Made by a program: the position numbers and the translations under genes | The notes under the pieces: generated by a model | Database searches by the model: none | Seen by the model: only the letters and a program-made list of their open reading frames with translations | What the model was told of the DNA's origin: nothing | Assembly (NCBI GenBank): GCA_024697825.1 | Contig: JAILEP010000009.1 | Location: forward strand, 1-52,739 | DNA: 52,739 nucleotides | Source of the DNA: Acholeplasmatales bacterium | GTDB lineage: Bacteria > Bacillota_I > Bacilli_A > Acholeplasmatales > Anaeroplasmataceae | Direction of reading: 5' to 3' | Shown: positions 7,744 through 38,733 of the stretch, one piece after another | Numbering within the stretch: position 1 is the first letter of the stretch | Layout of the letters: every line of letters begins with the position of its first letter

Positions 7744-7754
7744 TGCAAGTGTAA

Positions 7755-7926
7755 AAATATTAGAGGTAGCAATGCAAATGAGTAATGTATAGAGAAGGCA
7801 TTCGATGAAATACATGAAAGGTAACCATTGCCGAATAGTAAATAGAGGCATTTATTTATTATGGGGATATAGGAAAGACTTATATCACTCCTACAATGTT
7901 GTAGAGGGGCTAAATTATTTATTCTT
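7755..7926 (+). promoter_or_regulatory. Lysine riboswitch (L box)
   Basis: Metabolite-sensing aptamer of the lysine class. The conserved segments appear in the right order: AGAGGTAGC at 7762-7770, GAGTAATG near 7780, AGAAGGCA at 7793-7800, GAAAGGTAACC at 7816-7826, TTGCCGAA at 7828-7835, the long P5-like arm, then GTAGAGGGGCTAAA closing P1 near 7911-7925. The downstream genes are lysA, dapF, dapA and dapB, the usual targets. An intrinsic terminator at 7944-7976 points to transcription attenuation, with lysine binding favouring termination. The 281-nt gap between degV and lysA is fully explained by promoter, aptamer and terminator. Confidence 0.93.
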
Positions 7927-7988: not shown

Positions 7989-9224
7989 ATGAAAATTGCA
8001 GGCGTCGACGTTAAGGATTTAAAAAATGAGTATGGTACACCACTTTATATTTATGATGTGGAGCATCTAAAGAGAAATATGGAAGGTTACCTAAATTATT
8101 TCAAGTCTAACGAATTTGAAACTGAGGTATTATATGCATCTAAGGCATTTAATGTTAAGGAAATGGTAAGACTTGTTAAGAGTGAGGGAATGAGCCTTGA
8201 CTGTGTTTCTGAAGGAGAAATCTATACAGCTTTAGCAGTTGGATTTGATCCTGCAAAGATTTACTTCCATGGTAATAATAAGTCATATGCTGAATTAGAA
8301 TATGCTATTTCAAACAATATTGGTACAATCGTTGCTGATAATGTTATGGAGCTTGAGGTAATTGAAGAGATTGCTGCAAAGCTTAATAAGCATGTCAATG
8401 TTATGTTTAGAATGAATGTAGGTGTTGATGCACATACTCATAAATTCATTGTAACTGCACATGTTGATTCAAAGTTCGGTGTATTATATGGCAGTGATGA
8501 TTATAAGAAGATTTTAGAAATCTTTAAGAAGTCAAAGAATATGACATTCTTAGGATTCCATTCTCACATTGGCTCTCAGATTTTTGATCTAAATGCCTTC
8601 CAGGCAGCAGCTGAAAAGGTAATCGGCTATTGTAAGGATTTTGATTACCCTCTAGTAATCAATTTAGGTGGAGGCTACGCAGTACATTATACTGATGCTG
8701 ATGCACCTATCCCATTTGATAAGGTATCAAAGACATTAATTGATACAGTAGAAAAGGAATTAAAGAAGCAGAATGTAAAGATTAAAAAGCTTGCTATTGA
8801 ACCAGGTAGAAGTATTGTAGCTGAAGCTGGTTATACATTATATACAGTAGGCTTTACTAAAAAGACACCTAATAAGGAATATTATTTCATTGATGGTGGT
8901 ATGACAGATAATATCCGTCCTGCATTATATCAGGCTAAGTATGAGGCTGATATCGTTGGTAAGGAAAACGATAAGAAGGATCATATTGTAACAGTAGCTG
9001 GTAAGTGCTGTGAATCAGGAGATTTAATTATCGAAGGCTGTGCTCTTCCTAAGGCAGTTCCTGGTGATTTATTAATCACTTATACAACTGGTGCTTATGG
9101 ATATTCAATGGGCAGCAATTATAACAAGGCATTAACTCCAGCAGTTGTCTTTGTTGAAAATGGTAAGTCTAAGCTTGCTGTTAGACGTATGACATTTGAG
9201 GAGCTAATCGAAAGAGAGGTATAA
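7989..9224 (+). CDS. lysA: Diaminopimelate decarboxylase
   Basis: PLP enzyme that decarboxylates meso-diaminopimelate to L-lysine. 411 residues, family length. The PLP lysine is in VLYASKAFNV, the glycine-rich phosphate-binding turn is NLGGGYAV, the dimer-interface Cys is in GKCCESGD, and the C-terminal tyrosine loop is TTGAYGYSMGSNYN. The ribosome site GAGGAGG sits directly after the riboswitch terminator. It is first in a four-gene operon; dapF begins 3 nt downstream. Control by lysine through the upstream riboswitch is strongly implied. Confidence 0.97.
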   Translation: MKIAGVDVKDLKNEYGTPLYIYDVEHLKRNMEGYLNYFKSNEFETEVLYASKAFNVKEMVRLVKSEGMSLDCVSEGEIYTALAVGFDPAKIYFHGNNKSYAELEYAISNNIGTIVADNVMELEVIEEIAAKLNKHVNVMFRMNVGVDAHTHKFIVTAHVDSKFGVLYGSDDYKKILEIFKKSKNMTFLGFHSHIGSQIFDLNAFQAAAEKVIGYCKDFDYPLVINLGGGYAVHYTDADAPIPFDKVSKTLIDTVEKELKKQNVKIKKLAIEPGRSIVAEAGYTLYTVGFTKKTPNKEYYFIDGGMTDNIRPALYQAKYEADIVGKENDKKDHIVTVAGKCCESGDLIIEGCALPKAVPGDLLITYTTGAYGYSMGSNYNKALTPAVVFVENGKSKLAVRRMTFEELIEREV

Positions 9225-31091: not shown

Positions 31092-32744
31092 GTGGTGGAA
31101 GAAAGAAAGCCAATTATCGAATTACACAATATCGTTAAGTATTACGGCGATAATTGTGTCGTAGATGATCTAGACCTAGACATTTACGAAAATGAGTTTG
31201 TAACTCTTTTAGGTCCTTCTGGATGTGGTAAGACTACTACATTAAGAATGATTGGAGGATTTGAGTATCCTACAAGTGGTGAAATTATTGTAAATGGAAA
31301 GATTATTAATTCGCTTCCTGCATATGCAAGACCTATTAATACAGTTTTCCAAAGATATGCATTATTCCCACATCTTAACGTTTTTGACAACGTTGCCTTT
31401 GGTTTAGTAAACCGTGGAAGAAAGTTTATGATTAACTTTTATGGAGGAAAACTTCAAGTACACTATGATGCTATTGAATATAACGTCAAGATTGGAAAAA
31501 AGGATTCATCTATATTAAAGGCTGCTAAAGCATCTTTTGAAGCTTTAAAAGAAATTGAAAAGAAGCAAGTAGCATTGGAAATTGAATTAGCTGAAATTAA
31601 GTCTGAAAAGAAATCAAGTATTGAAAAAATCAACAATGAACTTAAGGACTTAAATGCAGAAGCAAAGGCAGCTAAAGATTCTTCTGAAAAAATTAAAATT
31701 GAAAAGAAGCAAGAAGCATTGAAGACTGAATTAGCTGAAATTAAGTCTGAAAAGAAATCAAGCATTGAAAAAATCAACAATGAACTTAAGAACTTAAATG
31801 CAGAAGCAAAGGCTAATAAGATGCCTACTCTAACTTATTTTGATATTAATAAATATCTAGAGGAAAGAGTTAAGGAATCTGTTACATCAGCTTTAAAACT
31901 TGTAAATCTTTCAGGATATGAGGATAGAAAAATTGATAAGATTTCTGGTGGCCAGATGCAGCGTGTTGCAATTGCTCGTGCAATTATTTTAAAACCAAAG
32001 ATTTTGTTATTAGATGAACCACTTTCTGCACTTGATCATAAACTACGTGTTAACATGCAGTATGAATTAAAGGAAATGCAGAAGAATCTAGGTATCACTT
32101 TTATTTTCGTTACACATGATCAGGAAGAAGCTATGGTTATGAGTGATCGTATCATTATTATGAAGGACGGTATCATTCAGCAGCAGGGCTCTCCTAAGGA
32201 TATTTATAATGAGCCTAATAACAGATATGTCGCTAACTTCATCGGTGAATCTGATATCGTTACAGGTGTTTACTTACATAAGAATTTAGTTAAGTTCTTA
32301 GGTCAGGAATTCCCTGTAGTTGGTTATGAATTCGAAGATGGTGAAAATGTTGATGTTGTTATTAGACCAGAGGACTGGGATATCGTTCCTAGAGAAAGCG
32401 CAAAGCTTGTTGGTAAGGTAACATCATCAATTTTCAAGGGTGTTCACTATGAGCTTTTAGTTGATATTGAAGGTAATGAATTCGTAGTTCATACATATGA
32501 AGATGTACAGGTTGATGAAATCATTGGCTTAAACGTAGACCCATATGAAATCTGTTTAATGAAGGCAGATGGCTCTCCAAAGAAGCTAGTTCCATTAACT
32601 AATGCAGAAGTTAGAAAGCAGACTACATTATTTGATATGACTAGTGCATATGAAATTGATAATGCATTCTATGGTCAGGAGGAAGCTCACGAGGAACCAG
32701 CTGTAGAAGAGGGTTCTGAAGCTCCAGCTGCAAAGGAGGAATAA
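31092..32744 (+). CDS. potA: Spermidine/putrescine ABC transporter ATPase with a long insertion
   Basis: ATPase of the PotABCD polyamine importer. 550 residues against the usual 350-380. Walker A GPSGCGKTT (41-49), Q-loop FQRYALFPH, signature ISGGQ (284-288), Walker B ILLLDEPLSALD, H-loop VTHDQEE, then a TOBE-type regulatory domain and an acidic tail. The extra length is an insertion of about 140 residues (about 114-255) between Q-loop and signature. It is mostly coiled coil and contains a near-exact tandem repeat of 48 residues. Mycoplasma PotA proteins are similarly long. The start is GTG 31092 or 31095 because a stop lies just upstream in frame; no ribosome site is evident. Confidence 0.93.
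   Translation: MVEERKPIIELHNIVKYYGDNCVVDDLDLDIYENEFVTLLGPSGCGKTTTLRMIGGFEYPTSGEIIVNGKIINSLPAYARPINTVFQRYALFPHLNVFDNVAFGLVNRGRKFMINFYGGKLQVHYDAIEYNVKIGKKDSSILKAAKASFEALKEIEKKQVALEIELAEIKSEKKSSIEKINNELKDLNAEAKAAKDSSEKIKIEKKQEALKTELAEIKSEKKSSIEKINNELKNLNAEAKANKMPTLTYFDINKYLEERVKESVTSALKLVNLSGYEDRKIDKISGGQMQRVAIARAIILKPKILLLDEPLSALDHKLRVNMQYELKEMQKNLGITFIFVTHDQEEAMVMSDRIIIMKDGIIQQQGSPKDIYNEPNNRYVANFIGESDIVTGVYLHKNLVKFLGQEFPVVGYEFEDGENVDVVIRPEDWDIVPRESAKLVGKVTSSIFKGVHYELLVDIEGNEFVVHTYEDVQVDEIIGLNVDPYEICLMKADGSPKKLVPLTNAEVRKQTTLFDMTSAYEIDNAFYGQEEAHEEPAVEEGSEAPAAKEE
31552..31813 (+). repeat. 144-bp in-frame tandem duplication inside potA
   Basis: Copy one at 31552-31669 and copy two at 31696-31813 are nearly identical at DNA level, with a period of 144 bp (48 codons). 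They include AEIKSEKKSSIEKINNEL in both copies. A handful of substitutions suggests a recent duplication. The reading frame is kept. Confidence 0.9.
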
Positions 32745-35961: not shown

Positions 35962-35989
35962 TTGACTTTTATGTCAAAAATGATATAAT
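35962..35989 (+). promoter_or_regulatory. Promoter of the carboxyspermidine operon
   Basis: TTGACT (35962-35967), 16-bp spacer, TATAAT (35984-35989) preceded by TG-A, an extended -10. The predicted start is near 35996. Confidence 0.8.
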
Positions 35990-35995
35990 TGATAT

Positions 35996-36250
35996 TGCTA
36001 ATATATAGAAAAACTCAAATAGAGTCGTAGCAAAGTGACGGAAGTCACATTATTGATTGAGTTAAAAGCTCAAATTTTATAAGCTGGTTACTTTAACAAC
36101 CATTAAATGCACAATCGTGTGCCACTTGTGAAACGGTCAATAAGAGTAGTAAAAGTAATGTTTACTATATAGACTCTAAATGAAAACTTTTTTCTTAAAC
36201 CATTTTGTTTATTTCACAGTCGCATACAACTGCGGCTGTTTTATTTTTTT
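35996..36250 (+). promoter_or_regulatory. Candidate riboswitch/attenuator leader of the carboxyspermidine genes
   Basis: About 250 nt between a strong promoter and the gene, ending in an intrinsic terminator. Visible helices: AACTCAA/TTGAGTT (36012-36018 with 36057-36063) enclosing GTGAC-GGAA-GTCAC (36035-36048); GCACA/TGTGC (36109-36122); TAGTAAA/TTTACTA (36147-36167). TAGAGTC (36020-36026), inside the first stem, is complementary to GACTCTA (36172-36178), a possible pseudoknot. TTGAG can pair instead with CTCAA at 36069-36073. TGTGAAA (36127-36133) is complementary to TTTCACA (36212-36218), which includes the first bases of the terminator arm, so it may be an antiterminator. No T-box, SAM, cobalamin or other class consensus that I know is present. 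Confidence 0.6.
36216..36250 (+). terminator. Terminator immediately before the carboxyspermidine dehydrogenase gene
   Basis: Arms ACAGTCGCA (36216-36224) and TGCGGCTGT (36231-36239), one G-U pair, 6-nt loop, then a U-rich tract to 36250. Its position in a 5' leader, 19 nt before the start codon, indicates regulated attenuation. Confidence 0.85.
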
Positions 36251-36268
36251 ATGGAGTGTGGTAGAAAT

Positions 36269-37528
36269 ATGAGTAGAGTAATTGTTATCGGATGTGGAGG
36301 AGTTGCAACTGTTGCAATAAATAAGTGCTGTCAGCATAGTGATGTTTTTGAGGAGCTTTGTATTGCGTCAAGAACAGTTTCTAAATGTGATGCTTTAGCT
36401 GCTAAGCTTCAGCCTACAACTAAAACTAAGCTTTCAACAAAGCAGATTGATGCTAATAATCTCACTCAGCTTATTCAGCTTTTTGATGAATTCAAGCCTG
36501 ATTTATGTATGAATTTAGGTATGCCATACCAAAATCTAATCATTATGGACGCTTGCTTAATTTGTCATGTAAATTATTTAGATACAGCTGCCTATGAGCC
36601 AGAGGATACTGATGATCCAGTATGGAGAGCTAGATATGAAAAGAGAGTCAAGGAAAAGGGATTCTCTGCTTATTTTGATTATAGCTATCAGTGGGAATAT
36701 AGAGAAAAATTTGAAAAGGCAGGCTTAATTGCCTTACTTGGATGTGGCTTTGACCCAGGTGTAACTCAGGCTTATGTTGCTTATGCGAAGAAGCATGAAT
36801 TTGACCGTATTGATTCACTTGATATCCTAGATTGTAATGGTGGAGACCATGGCTATCCTTTCGCAACTAATTTCAATCCTGAAATTAATTTAAGAGAGGT
36901 ATCAGCTGAGGCTGCATATTATGAAAATGGTAAGTGGGTTAGAGTTCCTGCTATGAGTATTAAGAGAGAATATAATTTCGATGGTGTAGGACAGAAGAAT
37001 ATGTATTTATTACACCATGAGGAAATTGAATCTATTTCTACAATTTATCCTGAAATTAAGAGAATTAGATTCTATATGACATTTGGTGATTCATATATTA
37101 CTCATATGAATTGTTTACAAAATGTAGGCTTATTATCAACTACTCCAGTAATGTATGAGGGTAGAGAAATTACACCTATTCAGTTCTTAAAATTCTTACT
37201 TCCAGACCCTGCATCATTAGGCCCTAGAACAAAGGGTAAGACTAATATCGGCTGTATTTTTACAGGCGTTAAGGACGGTAAGGAAAAGAAGTATTATATT
37301 TATAATGTATGTGATCATGAGGAAGCCTATAAGGAGACTGCATCTCAGGCTGTAAGCTACACTACAGGTGTTCCTGCAATGTGTGGTGCGATGATGATTT
37401 TAAAGGGCATTTGGACTACTCCAGGTGCGAGAACTGTTGAGGAATATGATCCAGATCCATTTATTGAGGCACTTGATAAATATGGCTTACCTAAGAGAGA
37501 ATCATATGATCCAGTGATGGTGGACTAA
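36269..37528 (+). CDS. Carboxyspermidine/carboxynorspermidine dehydrogenase (saccharopine dehydrogenase family)
   Basis: Reductively condenses aspartate semialdehyde with putrescine (or diaminopropane) to carboxyspermidine (carboxynorspermidine). About 419 residues. The N-terminal Rossmann motif is VIVIGCGGVATVAINKC. The family segments VNYLDTAAYEPEDTDDP, GCGFDPGVTQAY and GDHGYPFATNFNPEINLREV identify the CANSDH branch rather than lysine-forming saccharopine dehydrogenase. ATG 36269 is chosen over 36251, which directly abuts the terminator. The neighbouring decarboxylase confirms the pathway. The aspartate semialdehyde could come from asd at 11.8 kb. Confidence 0.9.
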   Translation: MSRVIVIGCGGVATVAINKCCQHSDVFEELCIASRTVSKCDALAAKLQPTTKTKLSTKQIDANNLTQLIQLFDEFKPDLCMNLGMPYQNLIIMDACLICHVNYLDTAAYEPEDTDDPVWRARYEKRVKEKGFSAYFDYSYQWEYREKFEKAGLIALLGCGFDPGVTQAYVAYAKKHEFDRIDSLDILDCNGGDHGYPFATNFNPEINLREVSAEAAYYENGKWVRVPAMSIKREYNFDGVGQKNMYLLHHEEIESISTIYPEIKRIRFYMTFGDSYITHMNCLQNVGLLSTTPVMYEGREITPIQFLKFLLPDPASLGPRTKGKTNIGCIFTGVKDGKEKKYYIYNVCDHEEAYKETASQAVSYTTGVPAMCGAMMILKGIWTTPGARTVEEYDPDPFIEALDKYGLPKRESYDPVMVD

Positions 37529-38733
37529 TGATAAAGGATTTAAGACCACCATTCGTTAGATTAAATGATTTTAATCCAGACGAATTATTTAAAGATTTAA
37601 AAACTCCTTGTTATGTAATTGATGAGAAGGGGTTAATATATGATGGTGAAATATTAAAAAGAGTAAGTGAGGAAAGTGGTGCGAGAATTCTTCTTGCCCA
37701 AAAGGCCTTTTCTAATTTTAATCTTTATAATGTTATTGAACCATATATTTATGGTACAGAGGCATCAGGACTATATGAGGCAAGGCTTGGAAGAGAGGAA
37801 ATGCCAAATAAGGAGGTTCATGTTTTCTGTGCAGCCTATAGGGATGATGAAATTGATGAGGTTATAAGCTACGCTGACCATATCATTTTTAATTCGATTA
37901 ACCAGCTAAAGAAATTTGGTTCTAGGGTAAAAGAGGCTGGTAAAGAGGTTGGTGTTAGAATCAATCCTGAATATTCAACTCAGCCAGGTCATGAAATTTA
38001 TGATCCATGCTCAAGTGGGTCAAGGCTTGGTATTACTATCGCTGATTTTAAGGATAATATGACTCCTGAGCTTTTAGGACTATTAGATGGAATTCATTTC
38101 CATACCCTATGCCAACAGAATTCAGATGATTTAGAGGCTACATTAAATGTTGTAATTGAGAAATTTGGTTCTTATTTTAAGGACCTAAAATGGATTAATT
38201 TTGGTGGTGGACACCATATTACAAGATTTGATTATGATATTGATAGATTAATTAGATGTATTAAGCTAGTTAAGGATAAATATAATGTTGAGGTTTATTT
38301 AGAACCAGGAGAGGCAGTTGTTTTAAATGCCGGCTTCTTATTAACTAGAGTGTTAGATACATTTAATAAGAATGGTCAAAAATTTGCCATAGTAGATACA
38401 TCTGCAGCTTGTCATTTCCCAGATGTAATTGAAATGCCATTTTTACCACCATTATATAAGGCAGATTTAGAAAGTAATAATATCGATTATAGAATTGGTT
38501 GTCCTACATGCCTTACAGGTGATGTAATTGGTAATTACAAATTTGATTCTGATTTAAAGGAAAATGAAATGCTAATATTTGGAGATATGGCACTTTATAC
38601 AACTTGTAAGAACAATACCTTTAATGGTATGCCACTTCCAGATATTTATGTTCTACATAATGATAATTCAATTGAAAAGCTTACAAGCTTTGGATATAAT
38701 GATTTTAAATATCGTTTAGGAAAGATGAATTAA
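37528..38733 (+). CDS. nspC: Carboxynorspermidine/carboxyspermidine decarboxylase
   Basis: PLP-dependent decarboxylase of the alanine-racemase-fold group, giving spermidine or norspermidine. 401 residues. PLP lysine in ILLAQKAFSNFN; HFHTLCQQ, NFGGGHHITR and the EPGEAVV block bind the cofactor; CPTCLTGDVIG carries the conserved Cys/Asp region and DMALYTTCKNNTFNG ends the active site. The start overlaps the dehydrogenase stop (TAATG), so the two are coupled. A terminator follows at the stop codon. Confidence 0.94.
   Translation: MIKDLRPPFVRLNDFNPDELFKDLKTPCYVIDEKGLIYDGEILKRVSEESGARILLAQKAFSNFNLYNVIEPYIYGTEASGLYEARLGREEMPNKEVHVFCAAYRDDEIDEVISYADHIIFNSINQLKKFGSRVKEAGKEVGVRINPEYSTQPGHEIYDPCSSGSRLGITIADFKDNMTPELLGLLDGIHFHTLCQQNSDDLEATLNVVIEKFGSYFKDLKWINFGGGHHITRFDYDIDRLIRCIKLVKDKYNVEVYLEPGEAVVLNAGFLLTRVLDTFNKNGQKFAIVDTSAACHFPDVIEMPFLPPLYKADLESNNIDYRIGCPTCLTGDVIGNYKFDSDLKENEMLIFGDMALYTTCKNNTFNGMPLPDIYVLHNDNSIEKLTSFGYNDFKYRLGKMN

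Follow-up and report, generated by a model that had tools for sequence, protein, structure and literature searches.

The carboxyspermidine dehydrogenase (CASDH) and nspC genes of this Acholeplasmatales genome are preceded by a long leader that ends in an intrinsic terminator, which raises the question of what decides between termination and read-through, and whether the RNA belongs to a known regulatory class. Polyamine riboswitches have long been sought. The sole validated class is a rare variant of the four-stem SAM-I riboswitch, with 13 examples; in Firmicutes, it exerts transcription-terminating OFF control on ldcC, speE, speB, and related genes (Salvail et al. 2023, PMC10853860). The explanation favored here, to which a probability of about two in three is attached, is that the leader is a cis-acting, terminating RNA that works as a riboswitch for an end product of polyamine synthesis, with spermidine as first candidate and putrescine as second, and switches the spermidine operon OFF. 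Two criteria for such an RNA can be judged from sequence: a conserved, covarying aptamer-type domain in the 5' leader, and an expression platform that is mutually exclusive with the aptamer fold. A third, direct and selective binding of a gene-related ligand, is here only inferred.

The locus lies in a stretch of 52,739 nt (hereafter, the window). Transcription is inferred to start near 35996, and about 220 nt separate the promoter from the terminator, with a structured core at 36020-36178 and the terminator hairpin at 36216-36239 (Table 1). The CASDH reading frame is open from an ATG at 36251; homologues begin at the ATG at 36269, the probable start. An ABC transporter operon reading as potABCD is found just upstream of the leader. 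In a PotA-like ATPase (31092-32744), an insertion of more than 100 residues lies between the Walker A and signature motifs; it is rich in Lys and Glu, internally repeated, and coiled-coil-like.

The leader folds with a z-score of -3.3, and none of 200 dinucleotide shuffles is equally stable. In the core, P1 encloses P2, P3, and P8, while P4 and P5 lie within P3, and P6 and P7 are borne on P5. The initial annotation had pointed to an extended -10 promoter, a GGAA hairpin, a 7-nt complement, a terminator, and an alternative pair, all of which are present at the places given. Two of its structural interpretations need correction. The complement between TAGAGTC (36020-36026) and GACTCTA (36172-36178) is real, but the pseudoknot proposed for it is rejected, since the pairing is nested and encloses the element, and is thus an ordinary closing helix (P1). 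This helix is supported by changes of its outer pair from U-A to C-G, and by an A-U to C-G change in one relative (L115). Likewise, both CTCAA partners suggested for TTGAG (36057-36061) exist, but the one at 36014-36018 is limited to the closest relatives, and the conserved partner is that of the local hairpin P4. P2 and P7 vary in length and their stems differ widely among members; for P2, about 25 distinct outer 4-nt arm pairs are found, without conservation of the GNRA loop.

Table 1. Features of the leader and its surroundings (window coordinates, unless a locus is named).
Feature	Position	Strand	Remarks
Promoter, TTGACT-16-TATAAT with extended -10	35962-35989	+	11/12 consensus matches, TG before the -10
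P1, 5' strand UAGAGUC	36020-36026	+	AGAGUC/GACUCU retained in relatives
P2 hairpin GUGAC-GGAA-GUCAC	36035-36048	+	hairpin at this position in 57/61 members
P3, 5' strand UUAUUGAU	36050-36057	+	pairs with 36136-36143; 98% of cells paired, mostly invariant
P4 hairpin GAGUUAAAAGCUC	36059-36071	+	both-side compensatory changes in 5/5 pairs
P5, 5' strand UUUUAUAAG	36075-36083	+	pairs with 36125-36133; 98.5-100% paired, sequence nearly invariant
P6 hairpin GGUU...AACC	36086-36101	+	4/4 pairs covary (GGUU/AACC to GAUU/AAUC, others)
P7 hairpin GCAC...GUGC	36109-36122	+	present in 47/52 members, 16 distinct stem starts
P5, 3' strand CUUGUGAAA	36125-36133	+	its UGUGAAA (36127-36133) doubles as putative antiterminator 5' half
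P3, 3' strand GUCAAUAA	36136-36143	+	pairs with 36050-36057
P8 hairpin GUAGUAA...UUUACUAU	36146-36168	+	contains the most conserved block, AGAGUAGUAAAAGUA
P1, 3' strand GACUCUA	36172-36178	+	pairs with 36020-36026; retained in relatives
Putative antiterminator 3' half UUUCACA	36212-36218	+	3-nt overlap with terminator 5' arm; extended pairing reaches further
Intrinsic terminator	36216-36250	+	9-bp stem 36216-36224/36231-36239, U-rich tract to 36250, ends 18 nt before ATG 36269
Carboxyspermidine (carboxynorspermidine) dehydrogenase, CASDH	36269-37528	+	Sacchrp_dh domains; NF043000 E 5e-117, under its cut-off
Carboxynorspermidine/carboxyspermidine decarboxylase, nspC	37528-38733	+	TIGR01047 420.7 bits, cut-off 409
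XRE-cupin gene in place of the RNA	L005:2450-2992		also L004, L006-L011, L076

Homologous leaders can be collected through the downstream protein. A CASDH search gave 80 loci, nine of which, besides the window, carry a near-identical core directly before CASDH. At four further loci (L061, L072, L078, L079), the core stands about 2.5 kb upstream of CASDH, before speA, in an operon that reads speA-speE-CASDH-nspC-aguA (the downstream genes of L079 were not separately listed). The first alignment, of 13 sequences, contains about 60 invariant columns in a core of about 140 nt, and a covariance model (R1) built from these 13 sequences detects one copy in the organism's own genome. It also has matches in 8 of 392 genomes of a phylum sample and in 48 of 391 from the class to which Ruminococcus sp. 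zg-924 belongs; of two families, one has matches in 16 of 43 genomes and the other in 12 of 116. Most of these genomes hold a single copy; three hold two (G466, G467, G818). Two side observations concern such pairs: in G818 (contig C99), the copies are arranged in tandem (37494-37709 and 37776-37944), possibly as a tandem riboswitch, and in G466, one copy precedes speA and the other nspC alone (L119 and L128).

The core sequence is almost unchanged throughout Bacilli and Clostridia. Among 61 members, the proposed partners pair in 97.5% of cells, compared with at most 45% when partners are slid, and changes on both sides are seen at 14 of 33 pairs (47 cells versus 4.5 in shuffles, 0/500). This alignment was fitted to the covariance model; an alignment of 27 members made with MAFFT, blind to structure, goes in the same direction (10 cells versus 1.7, 0/500 shuffles). 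As P3 and P5 are almost invariant, covariation says little about them, and both rest on pairing frequency only. By comparative sequence analysis, the leader thus contains a conserved, covarying aptamer-type domain, which fulfills the first criterion.

The second criterion concerns the terminator, which follows the core in nearly all full-type members. The pairing of TGTGAAA (36127-36133) with TTTCACA (36212-36218), announced by the initial annotation as overlapping the terminator 5' arm, consists of seven perfect pairs, and it is not peculiar to the window: complementarity between the P5 3' strand (CACUUGUGAAAC) and the 5' arm with its flank recurs across 60 leaders with a terminator. The energy of this duplex has a median rank of 0.086 among core windows (KS p = 4e-20, a value inflated by the relatedness of the sequences) and a mean z of -1.84 against shuffled arms. 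The values are noisy for L117, where the automatic choice took the wrong hairpin, and for L131, L120, and L124, where the terminator is uncertain. In the window, the duplex of the P5 3' strand with the terminator region reaches -11.0 kcal/mol, which none of 200 shuffles equals and which lies in the top 1% of core windows. The arms also covary with the strand: CUUGUAAAA members go with UACAAG or UUUUACG (L117 by eye, L137, L143, L157), CUUGUGA members with CGCAAG, CACAAG, or UUUCAC, and CACCUU members with AGGUG (L129, L089).

The minimum-energy state of the full-length leader is core plus terminator (-59.8 kcal/mol), versus -51.1 kcal/mol with the antiterminator forced, so both states are predicted to be foldable. 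Since P5 and the antiterminator cannot coexist, a stabilized core would favor termination. As judged from these complementarities and modeled energies, the expression platform is mutually exclusive with the aptamer fold, and the description of the leader as a riboswitch-like transcription attenuator is supported by the covariation of the leader among homologues, by the terminator that follows the core, and by a class-wide exclusive pairing. In the proposed mechanism, when polyamine is plentiful, the core (P1 enclosing P2, P3 with P4/P5/P6/P7, and P8) would fold and lock CUUGUGAAA in P5, whereupon the terminator would form and the operon would be off. When the core is not stabilized, the same strand would pair with UUUCACA before and inside the terminator 5' arm, block the terminator, and allow CASDH-nspC to be transcribed. 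The OFF polarity is an inference, drawn because the core excludes the antiterminator and because core plus terminator is the minimum-energy state; no termination data exist.

What stabilizes the core is a separate matter. Nine close relatives that lack the RNA have an XRE-cupin regulator gene at its position before CASDH, and gene and RNA are found together in none of the 80 loci. This exchange supports a regulatory role for the RNA, but no ligand identity follows from it, and it indicates that protein control of the operon exists. An attenuator whose core or antiterminator is stabilized by an RNA-binding regulator, with no small molecule involved, is excluded by no computation. It is nevertheless unlikely: the XRE-cupin proteins look DNA-binding and never co-occur with the RNA, no regulator gene accompanies the RNA, and a core of this length, with so many invariant columns among the 13 sequences and a distribution over Bacilli and Clostridia, goes far beyond a typical protein site.

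For the polyamine riboswitch, the ligand has to be deduced from the genes downstream. The first downstream gene at 70 loci is speD (23), speA (19), CASDH (10), potA (6), nspC (1), or potD (1), so that a polyamine biosynthesis or uptake gene follows the RNA in 60 of the 70, and the link to polyamines that the initial annotation had inferred gains support. The pairs speD-speE and CASDH-nspC constitute alternative spermidine routes, with putrescine as common substrate and spermidine as common product. As two routes and an importer stand under one RNA and have putrescine and spermidine in common, one of these two is expected as the ligand, in preference to an intermediate of a single route; direct binding and ligand identity are inferred only, with no binding or probing data. 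The remaining ten loci, where a shortened core precedes genes for a C39-like lipoprotein (7), an M28 lipoprotein (2), or a C26 hydrolase with a weak gamma-glutamyl-GABA hydrolase match (1), indicate that the class is not purely polyamine-linked.

Such short forms deserve a description of their own. At L087, L088, L101, L104, L120, L125, L126, and L161, a shortened RNA precedes a lipoprotein gene with a C39-like peptidase domain; several of these RNAs lack P6-P7 and a clear terminator, and they may represent a sub-class with a different expression platform or ligand. Another form, without the P8 block (L089, L121, L127, L129), precedes M28 lipoprotein, potD, potA, and C26 hydrolase genes.

The lipoprotein loci remain unexplained, and together with the frequency of speA (an arginine/ornithine/lysine decarboxylase) as first gene and the presence of aguA in the L061 operon, they leave some room for a metabolite riboswitch with another ligand, such as arginine, agmatine, cadaverine, decarboxylated SAM, aspartate semialdehyde, or norspermidine. 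This is a little less probable than control by a protein. Against it, operons that begin with CASDH only, speD, potA, or potD have only putrescine and spermidine in common.

Whether the RNA is already known was addressed by a cmscan of the window. The leader has no Rfam 15 match at gathering scores; relaxing the limit to E = 10 adds only BjrC1505 and GcvB, far under their gathering scores and attributable to chance. The scan does recover a lysine riboswitch (RF00168, 79.2 bits) at 7753-7920, which serves as a positive control for the search; it precedes a diaminopimelate-decarboxylase-like gene (7989-9224) and dapF/dapA-like genes. This is the only RF00168 match in the window, away from the leader, which does not qualify as a member. 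For RF00162 (SAM-I), the window gives no match, even when E values up to 10 are allowed. While the leader resembles the SAM-I-variant spermidine riboswitch in outline, through its inferred terminating OFF control, it differs from it in fold and sequence and is not a member. The speF motif, described as alphaproteobacterial (PMC11477304), the odc1 motif, alphaproteobacterial and translational, and the potE motif, from Veillonella with weak covariation (both PMC8632094), are likewise candidate cis elements of polyamine genes, but their structures differ from that of the leader.

The statement that no known riboswitch class applies therefore holds at the window, where neither finding that would have refuted the annotation, a significant Rfam match or an absence of covariation, was obtained. 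Among relatives, an extra 5' subdomain is known to Rfam as RF02440 (SpF59_sRNA, ldcC RNA), so that the class is not wholly unrecorded. The RF02440 model covers 54 nt (a GACC...UACGGACAGCCGGGUC...UGCCGA fold, gathering score 37.2 bits, typed as sRNA), without the P3-P8 core and the terminator that are both present in the window leader. Its signature is found in 46 of 71 core loci (about two thirds), with scores above gathering in L061, L084, L087, and L089; L117, from Butyricicoccus pullicaecorum, is another member with the module. As the subdomain sits between the P1 5' strand and P2, it is an optional module inside P1. Conversely, an RF02440 search of the sampled genomes gave four loci: the R1-scored core adjoins in three (L090, L091, L092), and in the fourth (L161), a degenerate core can be recognized by eye. 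The module is missing from the window and from its Acholeplasmatales relatives, and this is why Rfam is silent here; no RF02440 match (the 54-nt fold at 37.2 bits or more) was found in the window or in its own genome. Judged by sequence comparison, the leader is thus not a member of RF02440 as modeled, but it shares the P3-P8 core and the position before polyamine genes with RF02440-bearing leaders, which is the test applied for membership in their common class.

The sRNA label of RF02440 suggests a further possibility, namely a trans-acting small RNA of which the terminated leader would be the product. Discrete Streptococcus pneumoniae transcripts are known: both F59 (82 nt; PMC3395615) and SN20 (869478-869791, with a predicted promoter and terminator; PMC2887815, PMC7531197) map upstream of SP_0916, which encodes an arginine decarboxylase. 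This position also fits a terminated leader, which would resemble an sRNA in such data (the S. pneumoniae sequence was not checked for the core). Given the cis tie to polyamine genes at 60 of 70 loci, and a conserved pairing that targets the RNA's own terminator, a purely trans-acting RNA is very improbable, though an additional trans role is not excluded. Attenuation by a leader peptide or a T-box can practically be set aside, as the window's 21-codon ATG frame at 36108 is a chance one, the 61 members share no start codon that opens a frame of conserved length (the most frequent aligned ATG is found in 17), and cmscan gave no T-box match, either in the window with E values up to 10 or in ten relatives at gathering scores.

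The polyamine riboswitch thus remains the preferred reading. Whether it constitutes a second spermidine/putrescine class, independent in structure of the first and much more widespread, is evenly balanced; such a class would have a large P3-P8 core that Rfam lacks and an optional 54-nt module listed there as a pneumococcal sRNA, and the window would be a reduced subtype without the module. Rfam holds only the 54-nt side piece. In the literature searched, which left out Weinberg et al. 2017, no paper describes the ldcC motif or RF02440, and neither an ldcC nor a lysine decarboxylase motif is mentioned in the 26-genome and 50-genome surveys; the extent of the core in the original ldcC description is not established, and priority is not claimed.

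Overall, the leader is a real, conserved, covarying attenuator and very probably a candidate polyamine riboswitch; its fold, its expression platform, and its association with polyamine genes rest on comparative evidence, while ligand binding and polarity are inferred. If this is true, gut and rumen Firmicutes would possess a common, well-conserved polyamine riboswitch candidate with a specified switching strand, and the pneumococcal small RNA F59/SN20, whose role is unassigned, would prove to belong to a cis-acting regulator of arginine decarboxylase. Comparing the subtype that has the 54-nt module with the one that lacks it would then amount to a natural experiment on the function of this module.
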